A stretch of 64,000 nt of DNA from Clostridia bacterium. Its GTDB lineage: Bacteria > Bacillota > Clostridia > Oscillospirales > Acutalibacteraceae. Shown piece by piece: positions 14,116 to 64,000 of the stretch (position 1 is the stretch's first letter; every line of letters begins with the position of its first letter). Location: positions 1 to 64,000 of the forward strand of contig JAGBCU010000062.1 of the NCBI GenBank assembly GCA_017937865.1. The letters run 5' to 3'. A model generated the notes under the pieces. It was not told the DNA's origin, ran no database searches, and worked only from the letters and a program-made list of their open reading frames with translations. The position numbers and the translations under genes were made by a program.

Positions 14116-15081
14116 TCAGTTTACAACGTTAACGGGTGTTCCGTTTAAATAATTTTTGATATTGTTTTCGAGAATTCCCATTAAACGAAGGCGTGTTTCG
14201 TAAGCCGCCCAGGCAATGTGAGGGGTTATAAAACAGTTGGGTGCAGTTAAAAGCGGATTGTCTTTTTTCGGTGGCTCTGTTGAGAGTACGTCAGTACAGT
14301 AACAAGCAACTTTTCCTTCTTTTAATGCATTTGCAACGTCTTCTTCAACTGCAACTGCGCCTCTTGCGGTGTTGATTATACAAGCGCTGTCTTTAACCTT
14401 ACTTAAAAAATCCTTATTGATAAGTCCGTTTGTTTTATCGGTAAGAGGACAGTGAACTGAAATGAAATCAGCATTTTTCAGAACGGTATCCATATCTGTA
14501 AACGTTACGCTGTCAAAGCCGTCTTTTTTACCTGAAGGGGTATAAACGAGTACGTTCATTCCGAAGGCTTTACCAATCTCTGCAACACGGCTTCCGATTT
14601 TACCAAAGCCGATAATACCGAGAGTTTTACCGTCTAACTCGTACAAGGGCTTGTTCCAATAACAAAAGTCTTTACAATTTGCCCAATCGCCGTTTTTAAC
14701 GGATTGTGTATATTCGTTAACTCTGTTAGTGTATTCAAGGATATAAGCAAAAACCATTTGCGCTACTGCATTTGTAGAATAAGCTGGGATATTTGAAACA
14801 GGTATATTTCTTTCTCTTAAAGCCTTGCAGTCAATCTGGTTAAAGCCGGTAGCAAGGGTGGAAACAAACTTTAATTCAGGTAATTTGTCAATAATTTCTT
14901 TGCTTAAAACAACCTTATTAACTACTAAAATTTCTGCCTCTTTAGCACGTTCAACAACAAGCTCGGGAGGAGTTCTGTCGTAGACAGTTAAATCTGTTAA
15001 ATCTTCAATACATTTCCAGGAAAGGTCGCCGGGGTTTTCTGTATAACCGTCAAGAATTACGGCTTTGAGTTTTTTTATCAT
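14116..15081 (-). CDS. D-2-hydroxyacid dehydrogenase (glycerate dehydrogenase-like)
   Basis: NAD-dependent reduction of a 2-keto acid, possibly hydroxypyruvate or glyoxylate. The 321 residues show the catalytic domain (TLATGFNQIDCKALRERNI), the NAD-binding GFGKIGSRVAEIGKAFG, and the active-site Arg (INTARGA), Glu (VLSTEPP) and His (TPHIAWA). ATG at 15079-15081 is preferred over the in-frame GTG three codons upstream because GGTGA is six bases before it. Its own promoter lies just upstream. The substrate cannot be told from the sequence. Confidence 0.88.
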   Translation of the reverse strand: MIKKLKAVILDGYTENPGDLSWKCIEDLTDLTVYDRTPPELVVERAKEAEILVVNKVVLSKEIIDKLPELKFVSTLATGFNQIDCKALRERNIPVSNIPAYSTNAVAQMVFAYILEYTNRVNEYTQSVKNGDWANCKDFCYWNKPLYELDGKTLGIIGFGKIGSRVAEIGKAFGMNVLVYTPSGKKDGFDSVTFTDMDTVLKNADFISVHCPLTDKTNGLINKDFLSKVKDSACIINTARGAVAVEEDVANALKEGKVACYCTDVLSTEPPKKDNPLLTAPNCFITPHIAWAAYETRLRLMGILENNIKNYLNGTPVNVVN

Positions 15082-15097
15082 AATTATCACCGAATAT

Positions 15098-42211: not shown

Positions 42212-42240
42212 TTGACAAATAAAAAATGCAGGAGTAAAAT
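42212..42240 (+). promoter_or_regulatory. Promoter of the aromatic amino acid operon
   Basis: TTGACA (42212-42217) and TAAAAT (42235-42240) are 17 bases apart. Transcription would begin near 42247 and include the leader peptide and attenuator. Confidence 0.8.
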
Positions 42241-42271
42241 TACCCCATACTATTTGAGTGAGGTGTTACAG

Positions 42272-42343
42272 ATGTACCAAAGTTTTAATCGATTTTATTA
42301 CTTTATTAAGGATTGTCTGTACACTGCTCAAAATTGCAACTGA
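42272..42343 (+). CDS. Phe/Tyr-rich leader peptide (attenuator peptide)
   Basis: A 23-residue frame, ATG 42272 to TGA 42341-42343, with ribosome binding site GAGTGAGGTG (42256-42265) six bases before it. Phe is at positions 5, 8 and 11 and Tyr at 2, 9, 10 and 17, with an FYYF run at codons 8-11 (42293-42304). That is seven aromatic residues in 23, upstream of a Phe/Tyr pathway operon and before an intrinsic terminator. This is the classic arrangement of pheA- or trp-type attenuation, in which ribosome stalling on scarce aminoacyl-tRNA prevents termination. Peptide function is inferred from position and composition. Confidence 0.8.
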   Translation: MYQSFNRFYYFIKDCLYTAQNCN

Positions 42344-42415
42344 TTGTAATTTTAGTGATATAGACAGTCCGCATTCTGCTATGCTTTTAAAAGCATATTA
42401 GTTTGCGGATTTTTT
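42310..42415 (+). terminator. Attenuator: pause-type hairpin and intrinsic terminator
   Basis: GGATTGTCTGTACACT (42310-42325) can pair with AGTGATATAGACAGTCC (42354-42370), with an inner hairpin 42330-42339/42344-42353. The terminator pairs TCCGCA (42368-42373) with TGCGGA (42404-42409) around the perfect palindrome ATGCTTTTAAAAGCAT (42381-42396), followed by TTTTTT. An alternative pairing of ATAGACAG (42360-42367) with CTGCTAT (42376-42382) would break the terminator stem. A ribosome at the FYYF codons would cover the start of the first hairpin. No T-box consensus was seen. Confidence 0.75.
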
Positions 42416-42431
42416 ATTTGGAGGATTATTT

Positions 42432-43619
42432 ATGATTTCAGAAAAAATGATGCAGCTCGGAAAAAAAAGCTCAATTATTCGCGAGATTTTTGAGTACGGT
42501 AAAAAGAGAAAAGCCGAAATCGGTGCTGAAAACGTATTTGATTTCAGTCTTGGTAACCCAAGTGTTCCCGCGCCTCAAAAGGTTACCGACGTTATGACAA
42601 AATTAATGAACGAAGTGCCTGCCGAAGTGCTTCACGGTTATACTTCGGGCCCCGGTGATATGAACGTAAGAACAGCAATTGCCGAGTACATTAAGAATAA
42701 ATTCGGTGTTGATGCTAATGCTGGGTTAATATATATGACCTGCGGTGCTGCGGCTTCTCTTACAATTACTTTAAACGCAATTACCGAACCCGGCGACGAG
42801 GTAATCGCATTTGCACCGTTCTTTCCTGAATACAGAGTGTTTGCTGAACAGGCAGGAGCAAAATTTGTAACAGTGCCTTGTAAGCAAGAGGATTTACAGA
42901 TTGATTTTGATGCTTTAGAAAAAGCAATTAATAAAAATACAAAGGCTATCATAATTAATTCACCTAATAATCCCTCAGGTGTAATTGTTCCTGAAAAGGA
43001 TATTATCAAACTTACTGATTTTCTCAAAGAAAAACAGAAAGAGTATATTAAAGAAATTTTCCTTATTTCAGACGAGCCTTACAGAGAGCTTGTTTTCACA
43101 GGTGAAAAGGTTCCTTATATACCTTGTTACTATGAAAACTCTTTCGTATGCTATTCTTACAGTAAAGCACTTTCTCTTCCCGGTGAAAGAATCGGTTATA
43201 TTTTCGTTTCACCCACAATGAAGGATGCCGGTGATGTTTATGCGGCAGTTTGCGGTGCAGGTCGTGCTTTAGGCTACGTTTGTGCTCCAAGCCTTATGCA
43301 GTATACAATCGCACAGTGCCTTGAAGATACTGCTGATATCAGTATTTATGAAAAAAACAGAAAGCTTCTTTACGAGGGTCTCACCGATATCGGTTATACA
43401 GTTATTAAACCCGACGGTGCATTTTATATGTTCGTAAAAACTCTTGAGGAGGATGCTTTTAAATTCTACGAAAGAGCAAAGAATTTTGAATTGCTTCTCG
43501 TTCCAAGTGACGATTTCGGTTGTAAGGGCTTTGTAAGAATCTCTTACTGTGTAGATACTAAACAAATTGAAAATTCACTTCCTGCTTTTAAAGCACTTTA
43601 TGAGGATTATAAAAAATGA
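42432..43619 (+). CDS. Class I/II aminotransferase (aromatic or aspartate type)
   Basis: PLP aminotransferase, probably the final step to phenylalanine and tyrosine given its place at the head of the aromatic operon. The 395 residues show FSLGNPSVPAP, HGYTSGPGD, INSPNNPSGV (Asn binding the cofactor), LISDEPYREL (Asp/Tyr) and CYSYSKALSLPGERIGY with the Schiff-base lysine. It could be an aspartate or prephenate aminotransferase. ATG follows TTGGAGG. The stop overlaps the pheA start (ATGA). Confidence 0.88.
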   Translation: MISEKMMQLGKKSSIIREIFEYGKKRKAEIGAENVFDFSLGNPSVPAPQKVTDVMTKLMNEVPAEVLHGYTSGPGDMNVRTAIAEYIKNKFGVDANAGLIYMTCGAAASLTITLNAITEPGDEVIAFAPFFPEYRVFAEQAGAKFVTVPCKQEDLQIDFDALEKAINKNTKAIIINSPNNPSGVIVPEKDIIKLTDFLKEKQKEYIKEIFLISDEPYRELVFTGEKVPYIPCYYENSFVCYSYSKALSLPGERIGYIFVSPTMKDAGDVYAAVCGAGRALGYVCAPSLMQYTIAQCLEDTADISIYEKNRKLLYEGLTDIGYTVIKPDGAFYMFVKTLEEDAFKFYERAKNFELLLVPSDDFGCKGFVRISYCVDTKQIENSLPAFKALYEDYKK

Positions 43620-44716
43620 TTGATTACGAAAAAGAGTTTCACGAAGCAAGAAATACTATAAGTGAAATTGATGTAAAAATCGCAAAGCTTTTTGAAGAGC
43701 GTATGAACGCCGCAAAGGTTGTTGCAGAATATAAGAAAGTAAACGGTATTCCCGTTGAGGATAAGGAAAGAGAAAAAATACTTCTTGAAAAGAACAGTCA
43801 AATGGTTACTGAAGACGAAATTCGGTCTTATTACGTAAACTTTCAAAAGTATATGATGAAGCTTTCAAAGGATTTTCAGCATAAAATTCTTGACGGCACC
43901 CGTGTGGCATTTTCCGGAGTTAAAGGTGCGTTTGCCGAAATTGCCGTTAAAAAGATTTTTCCCGACTGTGTTCCCGTTGGTTATCAGGATTTTAAATCTG
44001 CTTATAAAGCCGTTGAAAACGGTGAATGCGAATGTGCAGTTTTGCCAATTGAAAATAGCTTTGAGGGCGATGTTGCAAGAGTAATGGATTTAACATATTT
44101 TGGCTCACTTTTTATTAACGGTGTTTACGATATGGCGGTTGAGCAACACCTTTTCGGTACATCCGATTCTCATAAAAGAGATGTTAAAAAGGTTATCAGC
44201 CACCCTCAAGCTTTAGGGCAGTGTAGCGAATACATCTCCGAAAAGGGCTTTGAAATTGAAGAGGCTGTTAACACAGCTGTTGCGGCTCAAAAGGTTGCAA
44301 CCGACGGTGATAAGTCTGTTGCAGTTATCTGTAGCTTAGAAGCAGGTCACGAATACGGCTTAAAGCTTCTTGACAGAAAAATTAATGAAAATAATACTAA
44401 TACGACAAGATTCGGTGTTTTCTCCCGTATTCCGAGAGGTGAGAGTGTTGGTGATGAGCATTTTATACTTCTTTTCACCGTTCGCGATGAAGCAGGTTCG
44501 CTTTGTAAAGCAGTTTCGGTTTTCAGTGAATTAGGCTATAACCTTAAAGCTTTAAAAAGCAGACCTTCAAAGGACGTTATATGGAACTATTACTTCTTCC
44601 TTGAGGGCGAAGGTAAATTAACAAAAGAATCGGAAGAGAAAATGCTTTCAGAGCTTTCAAAGGTTTGTACTAACGTTCGTCTTGTTGGTAGATACGGTAA
44701 AGAACAGATTATTTAA
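43616..44716 (+). CDS. pheA: Bifunctional chorismate mutase/prephenate dehydratase
   Basis: Converts chorismate to prephenate to phenylpyruvate. The 366 residues are: a chorismate mutase domain (about 1-85: ISEIDVKIAKLFEERMNAAKVVAEYK), a prephenate dehydratase domain (VAFSGVKGAFAEIAVKKIFP, LPIENSFEGDV, VISHPQALGQC, and the catalytic Thr in NTTRFGVF), and a C-terminal ACT domain (DEAGSLCKAVSVFSELGYNL, then SRPSK). The ACT domain usually binds phenylalanine for feedback inhibition; here KSRP replaces ESRP. It is translationally coupled to the aminotransferase. Confidence 0.95.
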   Translation: MIDYEKEFHEARNTISEIDVKIAKLFEERMNAAKVVAEYKKVNGIPVEDKEREKILLEKNSQMVTEDEIRSYYVNFQKYMMKLSKDFQHKILDGTRVAFSGVKGAFAEIAVKKIFPDCVPVGYQDFKSAYKAVENGECECAVLPIENSFEGDVARVMDLTYFGSLFINGVYDMAVEQHLFGTSDSHKRDVKKVISHPQALGQCSEYISEKGFEIEEAVNTAVAAQKVATDGDKSVAVICSLEAGHEYGLKLLDRKINENNTNTTRFGVFSRIPRGESVGDEHFILLFTVRDEAGSLCKAVSVFSELGYNLKALKSRPSKDVIWNYYFFLEGEGKLTKESEEKMLSELSKVCTNVRLVGRYGKEQII

Positions 44717-44736: not shown

Positions 44737-45744
44737 ATGGAAATGACAGTAAAAACGTCAATGGGCGATTATAATATCACTATTTTACGTGGTGCTATTA
44801 ACAATTTAAATAAATATTGCAATACAGATAAAAAAGCTCTTATTGTAACTGACAACGGTGTGCCTTTTGAATATGCTGATACTGTATCCAAGCAATTCAG
44901 AAACAGCGTTATAAAAGTCATCCCTCATGGTGAAAAAAATAAAAACTTTGAAACCTACAAAAGCTTACTTGAGGTTTTAAGTGAAAATGAATTTACACGC
45001 AACGATTGCGTTGTTGCAGTCGGTGGCGGTGTTGTAGGTGATATTTCAGGCTTTACCGCTTCAACTTATATGAGAGGTATAGATTTTTATAATATTCCTA
45101 CAACCTTGTTATCGCAGGTTGATTCTTCAATCGGTGGTAAAACTGCAATAGATTTTTACGGTTATAAAAATACCGTCGGTGCTTTTTATCAGCCTAAAGC
45201 TGTTGTGATTGACCCGAACGTTTTAAAAACCCTCTCACAAAGACAGCTCAATAACGGCCTTTGTGAAAGTATAAAAATGGCGGCAACATCAGATAAAGAA
45301 CTCTTTAATCTTATTAAAAACGGAGATGCATACGAAAATATTGAAACAGTCATTGAAGAATCATTAAAGATTAAAAAGTATGTTGTGGAAAAAGACGAAA
45401 AGGAAATGGGCTTAAGACGTGTGCTTAATTTCGGTCACACCGTCGGCCACGCCGTTGAAACCTCAATGGGCTTAAATGATTTGCTTCACGGTGAATGTGT
45501 TTCTATCGGTATGCTTGCCTTTTCTTCCGATAACGTGAGAAGTGAATTGATTTCAGTTTTAAATAAGTATAATTTACCTACCGAATTACCTTTATCTGCC
45601 GATGAGATTTTATCTGCATTAAGGCACGATAAAAAAGCTAATTCAAAAGGTGTTAACGCAGTTTTTGTTGATGAAATCGGTAGCTTCAGATTAGAGTTTA
45701 TAGATTTTGAAAAGCTTGATGAATTAGTAAAGGGGGCGTATTAA
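44737..45744 (+). CDS. aroB: 3-dehydroquinate synthase
   Basis: Cyclises DAHP to 3-dehydroquinate (shikimate step 2). The 335 residues show VAVGGGVVGDISGFTASTYMRGI, PTTLLSQVDSSIGGKTAIDFYGYKN, GLCESIKMA and NFGHTVGHAVE, including the metal-binding Glu and His residues. ATG follows TTGGAG. Two bases separate it from aroC. Confidence 0.96.
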   Translation: MEMTVKTSMGDYNITILRGAINNLNKYCNTDKKALIVTDNGVPFEYADTVSKQFRNSVIKVIPHGEKNKNFETYKSLLEVLSENEFTRNDCVVAVGGGVVGDISGFTASTYMRGIDFYNIPTTLLSQVDSSIGGKTAIDFYGYKNTVGAFYQPKAVVIDPNVLKTLSQRQLNNGLCESIKMAATSDKELFNLIKNGDAYENIETVIEESLKIKKYVVEKDEKEMGLRRVLNFGHTVGHAVETSMGLNDLLHGECVSIGMLAFSSDNVRSELISVLNKYNLPTELPLSADEILSALRHDKKANSKGVNAVFVDEIGSFRLEFIDFEKLDELVKGAY

Positions 45745-45745
45745 G

Positions 45746-46840
45746 TTGAAGAATACTTTTGGTAATAATATCTCTGTTACACTTTTCGGCGAAAGTCACG
45801 GTGAAGCCATCGGTGCAGTGCTTGACGGTATTCCTGCAGGTGTTGAGGTAGACCTTGAATTTATCAGAAAACAACTTGATTTAAGGCGTCCCGTCGGCAA
45901 AATTTCAACCCCTCGTAGCGAAGCCGATAAATTTCAGCTTGTCAGCGGTTGCTTTAACGGTAAAACTACAGGCACTCCTATTTGTATTGTTATACCTAAC
46001 GAAAATACTCATAGCAAGGATTATTCATCCTCTTACGGTAAAGCAAGACCGGGTCACGCTGATTATACTGCTTTTTGTAAATATAACGGCTGTGAGGATT
46101 ACAGAGGTGGCGGTCATTTCAGCGGAAGAATAACCGCAGGGCTTGTAGCTGCAGGTGCTATTGCTATTAAAATGCTTGATTCTAAGAATATTAAAATCGG
46201 TACTCACATATTAAAATGTGCAGGTGTTTTTGATGATTCTTTTAAAAATATTAATGACGAGTTAGACGCTTTAAATAATAAAGCCTTTGCTGTAATTAAT
46301 GATGACAAAGGCAAACAGATGATTGAAAATATTGAAAAGGCTGCTGCAAAAGGTGACAGTGTAGGCGGTATTCTCGAAACAGTTGTAACGGGTCTTCCCG
46401 TTGGTGTTGGTGAGCCTTGGTTTGATTCTCTTGAAAGTGTACTTTCTCATGGGTTGTTTTCAATTCCTGCAATTAAAGGTGTTGAATTCGGTCAAGGCTT
46501 TAACTGTGCCGATATGCTTGGTAGCGAAATGAACGACTCTTTTAAATTAGATAACGGTGAAATTGTTACTGAAACTAATAACAATGGCGGTATAAACGGC
46601 GGTATTTCAAACGGTATGCCTTTAGTTATTAAATGTGCCGTTAAGCCTACACCGTCAATTTCAAAAGAGCAGAATACAGTTGATTTTATAAACAATGAAA
46701 ATACCGTTCTTTCTGTTAAGGGTAGGCACGACCCTTGCATTGTCCATAGAGCCCGTGTTGTCGCTGATAGCGTTGTTGCAATTACATTGTGCGATGTGCT
46801 CTCTCAAAAATTCGGTACTGATTGGTTTGGTGAGGATTAA
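45746..46840 (+). CDS. aroC: Chorismate synthase
   Basis: Forms chorismate from EPSP using reduced FMN. The 364 residues show GESHGEAIGAVLDGIPAGV, RRPVGKISTPRSEADKF, RPGHADYTAFCKYNG and RHDPCIVHRARVV. The family's RSSARET stretch is replaced by GGGHFSGRITAG, as in a known short clostridial type. The TTG start follows AAGGGGG. The stop shares one base with the next start. Confidence 0.95.
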   Translation: MKNTFGNNISVTLFGESHGEAIGAVLDGIPAGVEVDLEFIRKQLDLRRPVGKISTPRSEADKFQLVSGCFNGKTTGTPICIVIPNENTHSKDYSSSYGKARPGHADYTAFCKYNGCEDYRGGGHFSGRITAGLVAAGAIAIKMLDSKNIKIGTHILKCAGVFDDSFKNINDELDALNNKAFAVINDDKGKQMIENIEKAAAKGDSVGGILETVVTGLPVGVGEPWFDSLESVLSHGLFSIPAIKGVEFGQGFNCADMLGSEMNDSFKLDNGEIVTETNNNGGINGGISNGMPLVIKCAVKPTPSISKEQNTVDFINNENTVLSVKGRHDPCIVHRARVVADSVVAITLCDVLSQKFGTDWFGED

Positions 46841-48090
46841 TGGATTACGGTTGTATAGGTGAAAAGCTTTCTCATAGCTTTTCTAAAGAAATTCATAATG
46901 CACTTACCGATTATGACTATCAGCTTTTAGAGTTAAAAAGAGAAGAATTGGAAGCGTTTTTTACTGAAAGAAGCTTTAAAGCAATAAACGTTACAATTCC
47001 TTATAAGCTTGACGTTATTCCTTATCTTGATTGGATATCTGATGAGGCAAGGGCTATTAATGCAGTTAATACAATCGTAAACCGCAACGGAAAGCTTTAC
47101 GGATATAACACGGATTTTTACGGTTTAAAAGGTCTTATCGAAAGAAAAATAAAGTCATTTAAAGGAAAAACGGTTGCGATTTTAGGTAGCGGCGGCACTT
47201 CTAATACGGCTTTTGCTGTTGCAAACAGTCTTGATGCTCAAAACATTGTTAAAGTTTCCCGCAAAAAGCAAGAAGGCTATATTACCTACGATGAGCTTTA
47301 CGAAAGCTATAGTAATTGCGAAATAATAATAAATACCACACCTTGCGGAATGTACCCCAAAGCAGGTGTATCGGCGGTTGATATTAATAGATTTCCTTGC
47401 GTTGAAGCCGTGTTTGATGCGGTTTATAATCCGCTTAAATCAAAGCTTATTTTAGATGCCGAGAAAAAGGGGATAATTGCCGGCGGAGGACTTTATATGC
47501 TCGTTTCTCAGGCGGCTTATGCAGTAGAAAAGTTTATTGATACTTCCGTTTCTCTTGGGAAAATCGAAGAGGTTTTCAAGAAGATTTATAAAGATAAAAT
47601 GAACGTTGTTCTAATCGGTATGCCTGCAAGCGGTAAAAGCTCTGTAGGTAAAGAGTTAGAAAAAATGCTTTCTAAAACCTTTGTTGATAGCGATACCGTT
47701 TTATCTGAAAATGCTGAAAAAACTATTCCCGAAATTTTTAATGAACACGGTGAAGCATATTTCAGAGAGCTTGAAAAGGTTACTATAAAAAATATTTCAT
47801 CTGAAAATTCTCATATTATAGCAACGGGTGGCGGTGCTGTCTTAAACTGTGAAAATATAGAGAATTTAAAAAGTAACGGAAGAATATATTTCCTCGACAG
47901 ACCTCTTTCGATGCTTTTAACAACAGATGACAGACCCTTATCAAGTAACAGGGCAGATCTTGAAAAAAGATATAACGAAAGATACGAGCTTTACAGAAAA
48001 TACGCTGACGTTATCATTGACGGTAGTGGCTGTGTAAATGAAGTAGCAAAAAGAATTGAGGCGGATTTTAATGGATATTCTTGTAATTAA
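46840..48090 (+). CDS. aroEK: Shikimate dehydrogenase-shikimate kinase fusion
   Basis: One 416-residue polypeptide carries two shikimate-pathway enzymes. Residues 1-250 are shikimate dehydrogenase: IGEKLSHSFSKEIHN, catalytic Lys56 in VTIPYK, Asp92 in YNTDF, the NADP loop ILGSGGTSNTAFAV, and LYMLVSQAAYAVEKF. Residues 254-416 are shikimate kinase: VLIGMPASGKSSVG (Walker A), Asp in FVDSDTVL, RELE, ATGGGAV and the lid arginine in TDDRPL. The two are usually separate genes. An ATG at the junction lacks a ribosome binding site, so a true fusion is likely. The end overlaps aroQ by 20 bases. Confidence 0.93.
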   Translation: MDYGCIGEKLSHSFSKEIHNALTDYDYQLLELKREELEAFFTERSFKAINVTIPYKLDVIPYLDWISDEARAINAVNTIVNRNGKLYGYNTDFYGLKGLIERKIKSFKGKTVAILGSGGTSNTAFAVANSLDAQNIVKVSRKKQEGYITYDELYESYSNCEIIINTTPCGMYPKAGVSAVDINRFPCVEAVFDAVYNPLKSKLILDAEKKGIIAGGGLYMLVSQAAYAVEKFIDTSVSLGKIEEVFKKIYKDKMNVVLIGMPASGKSSVGKELEKMLSKTFVDSDTVLSENAEKTIPEIFNEHGEAYFRELEKVTIKNISSENSHIIATGGGAVLNCENIENLKSNGRIYFLDRPLSMLLTTDDRPLSSNRADLEKRYNERYELYRKYADVIIDGSGCVNEVAKRIEADFNGYSCN

Positions 48091-48505
48091 CGGTCCTAAT
48101 CTTAATATGCTGGGTATAAGAGAGCCTGATATTTACGGCAAGGAAACTTATACCTCATTAATTGAAAAAATTGAAGCTTATGCTGAAAAGAAGAATGTCA
48201 ACGTTAAATGTTATCAATCTAACCATGAGGGAGATTTAGTTGATGTTATTCAATTTGCTTACGGCGTTTATGACGGTATTGTTATAAATCCCGGGGCTTA
48301 TACTCATACAAGTATAGCTATTCTTGATGCATTAAAAGCAGTCGGTATTCCTGCCGTTGAGGTGCATATATCCGACGTTGATGCAAGAGAGGATTTCAGA
48401 AAAATAAGCTATGTAAGACAAGCTTGTTTTGAAACAATAAGCGGTAAAGGTACTGACGGTTATCTTTTAGCAATAGATTCTTTAATAAAGAAGATGAAAC
48501 AATGA
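48071..48505 (+). CDS. aroQ: Type II 3-dehydroquinate dehydratase
   Basis: Dehydrates 3-dehydroquinate (shikimate step 3). The 144 residues show INGPNLNMLGIREPDIYG with the catalytic Tyr, CYQSNHEGDLVD, INPGAYTHTSIAILDAL and AVEVHISDVDAREDFR. ATG 48071 follows GAGGCGG; the in-frame TTG at 48056 is inside aroEK without support. The stop overlaps the aroA start (ATGA). Confidence 0.96.
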   Translation: MDILVINGPNLNMLGIREPDIYGKETYTSLIEKIEAYAEKKNVNVKCYQSNHEGDLVDVIQFAYGVYDGIVINPGAYTHTSIAILDALKAVGIPAVEVHISDVDAREDFRKISYVRQACFETISGKGTDGYLLAIDSLIKKMKQ

Positions 48506-49710
48506 ACGTAGAAATTTTCCCATCGGTTGCTAAGGGCAAAATACATCCGCCACCCTCAAAAAGCTGTGCCCATAGATTGCTTATATGTGCGGCGCTGAGT
48601 GACGGTGTGAGCAAAATATCCAATATCGGCTCTAACGACGATATTCTCGCAACCATAGATTGCTTGAAAAATTTAGGTGCTGATATTGATATTAACGGTG
48701 ACGTTGTAACTGTTAAAGGTATTAATATTTCAAAAAAATCAAAAACACTTCAGCTTAACTGTAACGAAAGCGGAAGTACCTTAAGATTTTTTATTCCATT
48801 AAGCCTGCTTTTAAGCGAAGAAACTGTTTTTTACGGAAGTGACAGGCTTCTTTCACGCCCCCAGAGCGTATATGAAGCGATTTTTAATGAGCAGGGTTGT
48901 TTTATTGAAAATGACGGAAAACAGCTTAAAACAGCAGGTGAGCTTAAATACGGTGTGTTTAAAATGAGAGGGGACGTCAGCAGTCAGTTTTTAACAGGTC
49001 TGCTTTTTGCTTTGCCTCTTCTTAATGGCGACAGTGAAATTGTTTTGACTACTCCTCTTGAAAGTGCACCTTACGTTGATATTACAATTGATGTTTTGTC
49101 AAAGTTTGGTGTTTCTGTTGAAAGAAAATCTGAAAGCAGTTTCTTTATTAAGGGTAATCAAAAGTATTTACCTCAGTCGCTTTCGGTTGAATGTGATTGG
49201 TCCAATGCCGCTTTTCTTGATGCGTTTAATCTTTCCGGTGGTAACGTAGCCGTTGAAGGCTTAGATTACGAGAGCTGTCAGGGCGATAAGGCTTATAAAG
49301 GCTTTTATGAAAAGATTAAATCAGGTTGCCCCGAAATTGATATTTCGGATTGTCCTGATTTAGGTCCTGTTCTTATAGCAGTTTCAGCTATTTGCAACGG
49401 TGCTGTAATTAAAGGCACTAAAAGATTGAAAATCAAAGAGAGTGACCGCGGTGAAGCAATGAGGCAAGAGCTCAAAAAGTTCGGTGTTGATATTACCGTA
49501 AATGAAGATTCTATCGTTATACCGAAAGCGAAGCTTTTAACCCCAACCGAAAATCTTTGTTGCCACAATGACCATAGAATTGCGATGTCACTCGCTGTTT
49601 TGTGTAGCGTTGTCGGCGGTGTGCTTGAAAATGCACAATGTGTTAAAAAAAGTTATCCCGAGTTTTTTGATGATATAAAAACGCTTGGAATACAATATAA
49701 AATCATCTGA
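48502..49710 (+). CDS. aroA: EPSP synthase (3-phosphoshikimate 1-carboxyvinyltransferase)
   Basis: Joins PEP to shikimate 3-phosphate. The 402 residues show PPSKSCAHRLLICAALSDG, NESGSTLRFFIPLS, GDVSSQFLTGLLFALP, and the C-terminal KIKESDRGEAMRQELKKFG and HNDHRIAMSLAVL. Coupled by overlap to aroQ. The LFALP stretch is the target site region in class II enzymes, but class assignment by eye is uncertain. Confidence 0.95.
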   Translation: MNVEIFPSVAKGKIHPPPSKSCAHRLLICAALSDGVSKISNIGSNDDILATIDCLKNLGADIDINGDVVTVKGINISKKSKTLQLNCNESGSTLRFFIPLSLLLSEETVFYGSDRLLSRPQSVYEAIFNEQGCFIENDGKQLKTAGELKYGVFKMRGDVSSQFLTGLLFALPLLNGDSEIVLTTPLESAPYVDITIDVLSKFGVSVERKSESSFFIKGNQKYLPQSLSVECDWSNAAFLDAFNLSGGNVAVEGLDYESCQGDKAYKGFYEKIKSGCPEIDISDCPDLGPVLIAVSAICNGAVIKGTKRLKIKESDRGEAMRQELKKFGVDITVNEDSIVIPKAKLLTPTENLCCHNDHRIAMSLAVLCSVVGGVLENAQCVKKSYPEFFDDIKTLGIQYKII

Positions 49711-49725
49711 TTGGAGATAATTAAA

Positions 49726-50754
49726 ATGAGTATGAATTTCAAAAGAAAACTTCCTATACCTATGGAAATTAAAGAGCAGTTTCCGTTAACTGCTAAAATG
49801 GCAGAACAAAAAGAGAAAAATGATGCTGAAATTAAAGCGGTTTTTACCGGTGCTTCTGATAAATTTCTTCTTATAATCGGACCTTGCTCAGCTGATTCAA
49901 AAGAGCCCGTGCTTGAATATATTTCAAGACTTGCAGAGGTAAGAGAAAAGGTTAAGGATAAGATAGTTATTATTCCTCGTATCTATACAAATAAGCCCAG
50001 AACAACAGGCTCAGGCTATAAAGGAATGCTTCATCAGCCCGATCCAAACGAAAAACCCGATATGCTTCACGGCATTATCTCTATCCGTGAATTACATATG
50101 TGTGCACTTCGTGACTACGGATTTTCCTGTGCCGACGAAATGCTTTACCCCGCAAACTACCGTTATCTTTCAGACCTTCTTTCTTACGTTGCTATCGGTG
50201 CCCGTTCAGTTGAAAATCAGGAGCACAGACTCGTTTCAAGCGGTCTTGATATTCCCGTTGGTATGAAAAACCCGACCGGTGGTGATTTATCAGTTATGAT
50301 GAATGCGGTTACCGCAGCTCAAAGCAGTCATACCTTCCTTTACAGAGGATGGGAGGTTGAAAGCGAGGGTAACCCTTATGCTCACGCAATTATGAGAGGT
50401 CTTGTTGACCGTGACGGTCACAGTATTTCTAACTATCACTACGAGGACCTTTTAAACCTTAATGAAGCTTATCAAAAATCAGGCTTAAAGAATCCCTCTT
50501 GTATAGTTGATGCAAACCATGCAAACTCCGGCAAGAAATATCTCGAACAGGTGAGAATCACAAAGGATATTCTCTATAGCAGAAATCATAACGACGATAT
50601 CAAAAAGCTTGTTAAAGGTATAATGATTGAAAGCTACCTTGAAGACGGTGCTCAAAAAATCGGTGACGGCGTTTTCGGAAAATCAATAACTGACCCTTGT
50701 CTTGGTTGGGAAAAAACCGAAAAGCTTATCTACGATATTGCAGAGCAGGCTTAA
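49726..50754 (+). CDS. aroF: DAHP synthase (type I, AroG/F/H-like)
   Basis: First step of the shikimate pathway, joining PEP and erythrose 4-phosphate. The 342 residues show LIIGPCSADSKEPVLEYI, RIYTNKPRTTGSGYKGMLHQPDPNEKPD, SVENQEHRLVSSGLDIPVGMKNPTGG and IVDANHANSGKKYLEQ. It is of the E. coli size class. Which amino acid inhibits it cannot be told. ATG 49726 follows GGAG; the in-frame TTG at 49711 is inside that site. It is the last gene of the operon, then a strong terminator. Confidence 0.93.
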   Translation: MSMNFKRKLPIPMEIKEQFPLTAKMAEQKEKNDAEIKAVFTGASDKFLLIIGPCSADSKEPVLEYISRLAEVREKVKDKIVIIPRIYTNKPRTTGSGYKGMLHQPDPNEKPDMLHGIISIRELHMCALRDYGFSCADEMLYPANYRYLSDLLSYVAIGARSVENQEHRLVSSGLDIPVGMKNPTGGDLSVMMNAVTAAQSSHTFLYRGWEVESEGNPYAHAIMRGLVDRDGHSISNYHYEDLLNLNEAYQKSGLKNPSCIVDANHANSGKKYLEQVRITKDILYSRNHNDDIKKLVKGIMIESYLEDGAQKIGDGVFGKSITDPCLGWEKTEKLIYDIAEQA

Positions 50755-62912: not shown

Positions 62913-64000
62913 TCAATATTTCTTAAATTTTATATTCTTATGAAACCTTGGCTCTTTTTCTCCTGCTTTTATCATTTCTCTTGATAAAAGAGCTCTCATT
63001 TGCGCAATTACCTTACTGTAATTTTCATCGTTTATAAGATTATTTTTTTCGCAGGGGTCATTTTTTAAATCATAAAGAAAATCATCAAAATAATGTTTCG
63101 CATCGGGCTTGTGCCAACCTGAGCCTATAGCCTTTGCTGAATATTTCCAATTTTTCGTTCTTATGGCTCTCCCGATATGTGATTCACTAATCTGAATGAA
63201 AACACAATCTCTTTCGGGAACGTCAGTTTTGTTAACAGGAAGAACGTTACCCGAATAATTATCGGGAATAGTAATACCTGCAAGATTAAGCAGTGTGGGT
63301 GGTAAATCAATAAGACTTACAAGGGCAGAAATATTTTCTGCTTTTTTTACTGCACCGCCACCGAAAACAAGGGGTGTATGAGTACAGGAATCGTGACAAC
63401 TACGTTTATATTCAACGTTTCGTGTTTTAAAGTGGCAACCGTGGTCACTTGTGTATATTATGACGGTGTTATCATAAATGTCTTTCTTTTTTAGTAAATT
63501 AACCAGCTTACCTACGTTTTCGTCGAGTCTGTTTATTGCTGCAAGATAATCGGGGTATTCCTCGTTGTAATCACCCTTTAAGAATGATAAATCTTCGGGG
63601 ATAGGGTAGTCTCGATATTTTTCTACACTTTCAATAGGTCCTTCGAAATGCCCGCGGTCATTTTGGTGGTGGGGTTCCAGCTGTGAAATAAACATAAAAA
63701 ACGGTTTTTCGTTGTTGTGATTTTCAATGTATTCCAATGCGAAATCATTTATACAGTCGGCACGGTAACCCGTGAAATCAATTTTATTACCGTTTTCATC
63801 AAAAACGTAACCGTCGTAGCCGTGAGAGGTGAATTCTAAAACGTCGGCACCTCGCCAGTACTTGTAACCGCCTTGTTTTTCAATCGGCACGGCAGTTTTC
63901 TCACAATGTGTTCCAAATCCCTTTAATCTGTCTGAAGCAAGATGCCATTTGCCGATATAAGCGGTGTCATATCCGTTTTCATTAAAATAATCGGCTATTG
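62913..64000 (-). CDS. Sulfatase family protein (5' end outside the window)
   Basis: Hydrolase of sulfate esters, or a related phosphoesterase of the alkaline phosphatase superfamily. The frame is open to the window edge, beyond the first in-frame GTG at 63890. Those extra codons read GYDTAYIGKWHLAS, a hallmark sulfatase motif. Inside are PFFMFISQLEPHH, LAAINRLDENVGKLVNLL, VIIYTSDHGCHF (metal Asp/His) and the C-terminal LYDLKNDPCEKNNL. The formylglycine Cys/Ser motif lies upstream, outside the window, so activity cannot be judged. The C-terminal end is complete. Confidence 0.88.
   Translation of the reverse strand, partial: IADYFNENGYDTAYIGKWHLASDRLKGFGTHCEKTAVPIEKQGGYKYWRGADVLEFTSHGYDGYVFDENGNKIDFTGYRADCINDFALEYIENHNNEKPFFMFISQLEPHHQNDRGHFEGPIESVEKYRDYPIPEDLSFLKGDYNEEYPDYLAAINRLDENVGKLVNLLKKKDIYDNTVIIYTSDHGCHFKTRNVEYKRSCHDSCTHTPLVFGGGAVKKAENISALVSLIDLPPTLLNLAGITIPDNYSGNVLPVNKTDVPERDCVFIQISESHIGRAIRTKNWKYSAKAIGSGWHKPDAKHYFDDFLYDLKNDPCEKNNLINDENYSKVIAQMRALLSREMIKAGEKEPRFHKNIKFKKY

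Follow-up and report, generated by a model that had tools for sequence, protein, structure and literature searches.

The window, that is, the whole stretch of 64,000 nucleotides analysed here from a Clostridia bacterium, carries an operon of eight shikimate and phenylalanine (Phe) genes preceded by a short leader, and the question raised by this locus is how the transcription of these genes is governed. The original prediction was a leader peptide rich in Phe and tyrosine (Tyr) codons, acting through ribosome-mediated attenuation. The analysis described below gives a probability of about 0.9 to the leader being a transcription attenuator in which the translating ribosome senses charged tRNA-Phe and charged tRNA-Tyr jointly. 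The attenuation initially proposed is supported with a refinement of its layout, in that the loop of the 1:2 hairpin contains the regulatory codons and segment 2 is itself part of the frame.

The components of the leader and the genes behind it are listed in Table 1. The consensus-like promoter, the 23-codon frame with its good ribosome binding site and seven Phe/Tyr codons, the intrinsic terminator placed 22 nt before the first gene (stem end at 42409, ATG at 42432) and the eight-gene operon, each gene of which could be named using NCBIfam, were all recovered as first described. The predicted folding energy of the leader RNA is -51.3 kcal/mol, shuffled sequences giving -30.3 +/- 3.8 (z = -5.6; none of 200 shuffles as good). 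Among the 31 ATG frames of 15-30 amino acids preceded by a Shine-Dalgarno (SD) sequence in the whole window, the leader frame is the sole one with a run of four Phe/Tyr codons, the FYYF at 42293-42304. At least seven Phe/Tyr in 22 codons is expected with p = 0.006 at the base composition of the window, so that the count is by itself only mildly unusual and the case is carried by conservation. Segment 2 has two possible partners, the SD/start region upstream of it (segment 1) and segment 3 downstream, and the overlapping hairpins noticed at the outset resolve into three mutually exclusive helices in the trp/phe manner: 1:2 plus 3:4, or 2:3 alone. The terminator 5' arm, AGTCCGCA, occupies 42366-42373.

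Table 1. Features of the leader and of the downstream operon, with positions counted along the window
Feature	Coordinates	Strand	Basis
Promoter: -35 TTGACA 42212-42217, 17-nt spacer, -10 TAAAAT 42235-42240	42212-42240	+	11/12 consensus positions; kept in relatives' alignment
Leader SD GAGGTG 42260-42265 and start codon 42272-42274; 1:2 hairpin segment 1 is 42262-42274	42260-42274	+	Pairs with segment 2; own-partner test
Leader ORF, 23 codons, MYQSFNRFYYFIKDCLYTAQNCN and stop, ATG 42272 to TGA 42343	42272-42343	+	Homologous frames in about 60 leaders
CGA Arg codon immediately 5' of the aromatic run	42290-42292	+	CGA in 28/28 leaders with Arg here; no consistent RNA partner
Regulatory codons Phe-Tyr-Tyr-Phe (TTT TAT TAC TTT), predicted stall site	42293-42304	+	Alignment, footprint scan
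Segment 2, GGATTGTCTGT: antiterminator 5' strand and 1:2 hairpin 3' strand	42310-42320	+	Pairing and covariation tests
Small hairpin spanning the leader stop codon, AAAATTGCAA...TTGTAATTTT	42330-42353	+	MFE fold; relatives differ in sequence here
Segment 3, ATAGACAGTCC: antiterminator 3' strand, overlapping the terminator 5' arm	42360-42370	+	Pairing and covariation tests
Intrinsic terminator: 3:4 stem 42366-42409, U-tract 42410-42415	42366-42415	+	Fold; covarying in alignment A4
PLP-dependent aminotransferase, first operon gene	42432-43619	+	NF005305
Chorismate mutase-prephenate dehydratase (pheA)	43616-44716	+	NCBIfam
3-dehydroquinate synthase (aroB)	44737-45744	+	NCBIfam
Chorismate synthase (aroC)	45746-46840	+	NCBIfam
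Shikimate dehydrogenase-shikimate kinase fusion (aroE-aroK)	46840-48090	+	NCBIfam
Type II 3-dehydroquinate dehydratase (aroQ)	48056-48505	+	NCBIfam
EPSP synthase (aroA)	48502-49710	+	NCBIfam
DAHP synthase (aroF type); intrinsic terminator 8 nt past the stop	49711-50754	+	NCBIfam

Relatives of the leader were first gathered via the aminotransferase, the first gene of the operon, and leaders from other families (L018 and L020) were already present among these. Two covariance models were built, R1 from 16 leaders and R2 from 41, and about 60 homologous leaders were found in several families of one class. The genes located behind them are an aminotransferase-pheA pair, pheA alone or the DAHP synthase gene aroF alone, as checked by NCBIfam on examples. 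Within the genus, the leader is present at every full-length close orthologue except the divergent L017. Among sampled genomes, leader matches were obtained in 28 of 394 from the order (one of them, L056 in genome G366, being a false positive of model R1), 22 of 300 of the family and 7 of 391 of the class, and a phylum-wide sample returned two genomes only, the window's own and one from the same order; all these counts are lower bounds since few candidates were scored per genome. At four loci (L017, L019, L021 and L022) the gene is present with no leader within the stretch read, and at orthologous aminotransferase loci elsewhere in Clostridia the leader was found at just 3 of 80. The leader is patchy even within its own order. 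In species G008 (locus L004), the leader terminator and the aminotransferase gene are set apart by some 300 nt of inserted, repeat-like sequence at about 1207-1500.

Homologous leaders deprived of the small frame or of its aromatic codons had been named in advance as the observation that would speak against attenuation, and the search for them failed to refute it: all the leaders, where present, keep a Phe/Tyr-rich frame, and nearly all possess an identifiable antiterminator and terminator. Likewise, the alignment of homologues displays conservation of both the aromatic codons and the terminator pairing. The 57 distinct leader peptides total 201 Phe, 196 Tyr and a single Trp, the latter in a tail located after segment 2. 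Both Phe and Tyr occur in 56 of the 57, and four consecutive Phe/Tyr residues in 47. The order of the aromatic run varies freely (FYYF, YYYYYYF, FYFYFYYF, FFFYFF), as does its flank (RFYYF, KFYYYYYYF, KFYFYFYYF, SFFFYFF), which is expected if the codons and not a peptide motif are under selection. The C-terminal half of the peptide (DCL, GCP, DFL, DCSS) tracks the variants of RNA segment 2, and each of these variants (GGAUUGUCUGU, GGACUUUCUGU, GGGCUGCCCGU and GGACUGCUCGU) is accompanied by a matching segment 3.

Alignment A4, on which the helices were evaluated, had been built to fit 1:2 and 3:4 and not the antiterminator 2:3. Changes on both sides of a pair were observed in 12 of the 14 pairs of 1:2 and in 4 of the 8 pairs of 3:4, in an alignment that leans towards these two helices. 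On the same alignment, 85% of the cells of 2:3 are paired, compared to 30-45% in controls slid along the sequence, and 19 cells carry double changes versus 6.0 after shuffling, a value as high being reached in none of 500 shuffles. In a separate comparison of ungapped segments, each strand was matched with its own or with foreign partners, and none of 5000 permutations reached the observed value for 1:2, 2:3 or 3:4; as the homologues are related to each other, these permutation counts are not true probabilities. Each of the three helices thus performs better than its foreign-partner controls. The 5' strand of 1:2 is made of the leader's own SD and AUG. Pairing of the SD to segment 2 is moderate and not universal, with 0.58 against 0.32 in the shuffled control (46 of 57 leaders).

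The position of the codons relative to the structural switch was explored by a footprint scan, which can be briefly described as follows. A ribosome was placed in turn on each codon of each leader, folding was restricted to the RNA from its downstream edge up to the terminator loop, and the terminator arm was recorded as held or not by an upstream partner. The calculation is blind to codon identity. In the leader of the window, the antiterminator holds with codons 2-9 in the A site and collapses after codon 10, the aromatic run being codons 8-11; the stall predicted at 42293-42304 would accordingly free the antiterminator strand in this model, as was originally proposed, and the behaviour generalises. 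In 52 of 53 usable leaders, a Phe or Tyr codon is the last one in the A site that is still permissive, a figure to be read with the caveat that the models used to find leaders favour a conserved spacing from the codon run to segment 2. The frequency of Phe/Tyr by offset from this last permissive codon is 0.94 (-1), 0.98 (0), 0.92 (+1), 0.57 (+2) and 0.02 (+3). The exceptions to the scan are L061 and L063, which show no antiterminator plateau, and L068 and L160, which show no drop. When the full-length RNA is considered at equilibrium, the terminator often beats the antiterminator even in the presence of a stalled ribosome, which implies that the switch must be kinetic, as in known attenuators.

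From the parts, their conservation and covariation and the codon positions, we infer the following course of stalling, read-through and folding in the cell. RNA polymerase would start near 42247 and a ribosome would load on the leader frame. When Phe or Tyr is scarce, this ribosome would halt in the FYYF run and, sitting in the 1:2 loop, would hold segments 1 and 2 apart, leaving segment 2 free to pair with segment 3; the terminator would then not form and the operon would be transcribed. When both amino acids are plentiful, the ribosome would cross segment 2 and block its pairing while segments 3 and 4 are made, 1:2 could refold behind it and the terminator would form. Should the leader not be translated, 1:2 and 3:4 would both form and transcription would stop. 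The frame passes through segment 2 and ends beyond it (median 17 nt, range 1-39), with about 26 nt left before the terminator arm, so that termination in the fed state would rest on the transit of the ribosome and the refolding of 1:2 rather than on a parked ribosome. The leader can be placed among leader-peptide attenuators on several grounds: a predicted promoter and a short ORF with a ribosome binding site precede the first structural gene, a cluster of end-product codons ahead of Phe/shikimate genes is kept across homologues, the intrinsic terminator and its rival antiterminator are both conserved structures and, in silico, a stall at, and not after, the regulatory codons frees the antiterminator strand.

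Among the alternatives, the one that survives best, while being improbable, is an arrest peptide: a nascent peptide of the RFYY type would stall the ribosome in response to free Phe/Tyr or some other ligand, as TnaC does with Trp, instead of uncharged tRNA. R-F-(F/Y)-Y is indeed near-invariant in the genus and recurs in several families, and ligand-induced arrest of ribosomes on a short leader is known from a drug-dependent uORF of B. subtilis (PMC9226507). However, half of the leaders have another residue in place of the Arg (K, S, I, G, M, Q, A, N and others), Phe and Tyr interchange freely, and, where Arg is found, its codon and not merely the residue is fixed. Arrest in the presence of plentiful Phe/Tyr would moreover raise expression when the product is abundant.

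The fixed Arg codon is an oddity of its own. CGA is used in all 28 distinct leaders having Arg directly before the aromatic run, compared to a CGA share of Arg codons of 4.5% in 56 window genes; of the 92 Arg codons of the operon none is CGA, and of the 35 at other places in the leaders 4 are. A cause at the RNA level was considered and rejected for now, as the pairing predictions show no shared partner. It is possible that CGA acts as a slow codon or a polymerase pause. A more elaborate proposal, speculative and rather unlikely to hold in full, is that the fixed rare codon constitutes a ribosome-pacing or polymerase-pausing signal which, together with 1:2 closing over the leader SD as segment 2 emerges, would form a timing gate admitting one ribosome. 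If true, such a gate would let the attenuator work where RNA polymerase may outrun the ribosomes. TTNTTT, the NusG-type pause motif, occurs in 37 of 61 leaders, mostly inside the T-rich codon run; the leader of the window has none in its run.

Control by a T-box, a riboswitch or an RNA-binding protein acting on the leader, with the aromatic codons being secondary, is less probable still. T-boxes do exist in this genome, which holds nine of them including one upstream of pheS (L033, contig 46 of G000, 14881-15096), and these were easily found, whereas Rfam reports no T-box (RF00230) in the window, and relaxing the threshold on the leader to E values of up to 10 yields no credible candidate either. 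At the same threshold none of the 4227 Rfam families matched the leader, RF01743 included, and nothing is conserved besides the parts of a leader peptide; the absence of a T-box sequence claimed at the outset is confirmed to this extent. The last alternative, in which the frame serves to make a small functional protein, with a terminator that is constitutive or otherwise controlled, is hardly credible despite the good SD and the conserved frame, given the extreme composition of the peptide, its constant position just ahead of Phe/shikimate genes and a C-terminal half that follows segment 2 variants covarying with segment 3.

The attenuator reading also fits into a wider aromatic regulon. The presence of a T-box on pheS in the same genome indicates that control by a Phe T-box is available and yet not used for biosynthesis; judging from the sequences, the synthetase and biosynthesis genes appear to employ different sensing devices. 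A further T-box is located ahead of a phenylacetate-CoA ligase (PaaK) gene (L037, contig 36 of G000, 63359-63602) and its specifier codon may be UUC (Phe). The initial remark that tyrA is not part of the operon is correct, with the refinement that the gene is not left unregulated: it lies elsewhere in the genome (contig 61 of G000) with its own Tyr-run leader, MKRNFAATYYYYYYFG, before a terminator (L172, leader ORF about 634-684). Counting the present one, nine genomes of the genus possess this leader, its run containing five or six Tyr codons. In the footprint scan, the terminator 5' arm and loop are held by an upstream partner most with the ribosome in the Tyr run, and the tyrA leader is, according to this modelling, a second attenuator specific for Tyr. 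It differs from the Phe/Tyr leader in that the Tyr codons are in the 1:2 stem, closer to the textbook design. As to tryptophan, a search for trpE (PF04715) gave no hit in this genome or in 23 others that bear the leader, each with a completeness of 90% or more, and scored in every control genome. This suggests Trp auxotrophy alongside the Phe/Tyr leader in these 24 genomes. Phe and Tyr thus look like the only aromatic amino acids of the pathway, which would explain why Trp is not read. At the hisG locus (L203), no His-rich small frame was seen in the stretch read, which starts inside the operon.

In E. coli, the pheA (pheL), trp and his attenuators comprise a promoter, a short ORF rich in codons of the product, mutually exclusive 1:2, 2:3 and 3:4 helices and a terminator before the biosynthetic genes. 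In trpL, the codons are in segment 1 and the stop codon lies between segments 1 and 2. The present leader shares the overall layout of promoter, ORF, exclusive helices and terminator with the E. coli systems and differs from trpL by having the SD and AUG in segment 1, the codons in the loop, a frame running through segment 2 and two amino acids read. Among Firmicutes, the Leu/phe leader RF01743, listed from L. lactis only (PMC2864571), is likewise named for two amino acids including Phe, with Leu and Phe there and Phe and Tyr here. The uORFC-13-1 motif found ahead of aroF has been seen in Acholeplasma and environmental sequences only and is described, in the part of the source available, as a candidate uORF with 'at least one' Phe codon (PMC8632094). 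By this description it has in common with the present leader a uORF with one or more Phe codons, an SD, an intrinsic terminator and a downstream DAHP synthase; the portion available gives no Tyr and no evidence on a stall position. Leader peptides are also documented in Firmicutes for hisS/hisZ (PMC2965389), his operons (PMC9413887) and S. aureus ilv (PMC5794164). The his, hisS/hisZ and ilv-leu leaders similarly represent leader-peptide attenuation replacing T-boxes in Gram-positives, the amino acids there being His or branched-chain ones and the operons being different. The original statement that Firmicutes mostly rely on T-boxes or TRAP for such operons thus stands in that leader peptides are uncommon there, and is to be refined by the documented cases (PMC2965389, PMC9413887, PMC2864571). 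In the B. cereus group, tyrosine biosynthesis has been reported to involve T-boxes (PMC2494555). The vmlR leader of B. subtilis senses antibiotics and involves a NusG-dependent TTNTTT pause (PMC9226507); both leaders combine a uORF, an anti-antiterminator, an antiterminator and a terminator, and vmlR is not a sensor of tRNA charging.

Within the openly readable literature searched, no Phe/Tyr leader family in Clostridia was found described. The device is of a known kind, namely leader-peptide attenuation, and its bivalent, widespread Phe/Tyr version of Clostridia, with a somewhat different geometry, is apparently unreported. It would be an unreported and widespread leader family in gut Clostridia that otherwise use T-boxes. 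With the covariance model, regulons for aromatic amino acids can be annotated in Clostridia that are not in culture. The leader would offer a clean natural test of transcription-translation coupling in these bacteria. 'Runaway' uncoupled transcription, shown in B. subtilis, has been argued from terminator-to-stop distances to be widespread (PMC7858274), yet an attenuator of this type depends on the mutual timing of ribosome and polymerase. The stop-to-terminator distance, taken as a proxy for runaway transcription, has a median of 15 nt over just 9 window genes. Elsewhere in the window, a Gut-1 RNA (RF01706), listed as human-gut-only, was detected at 293-367 with 73.9 bits.
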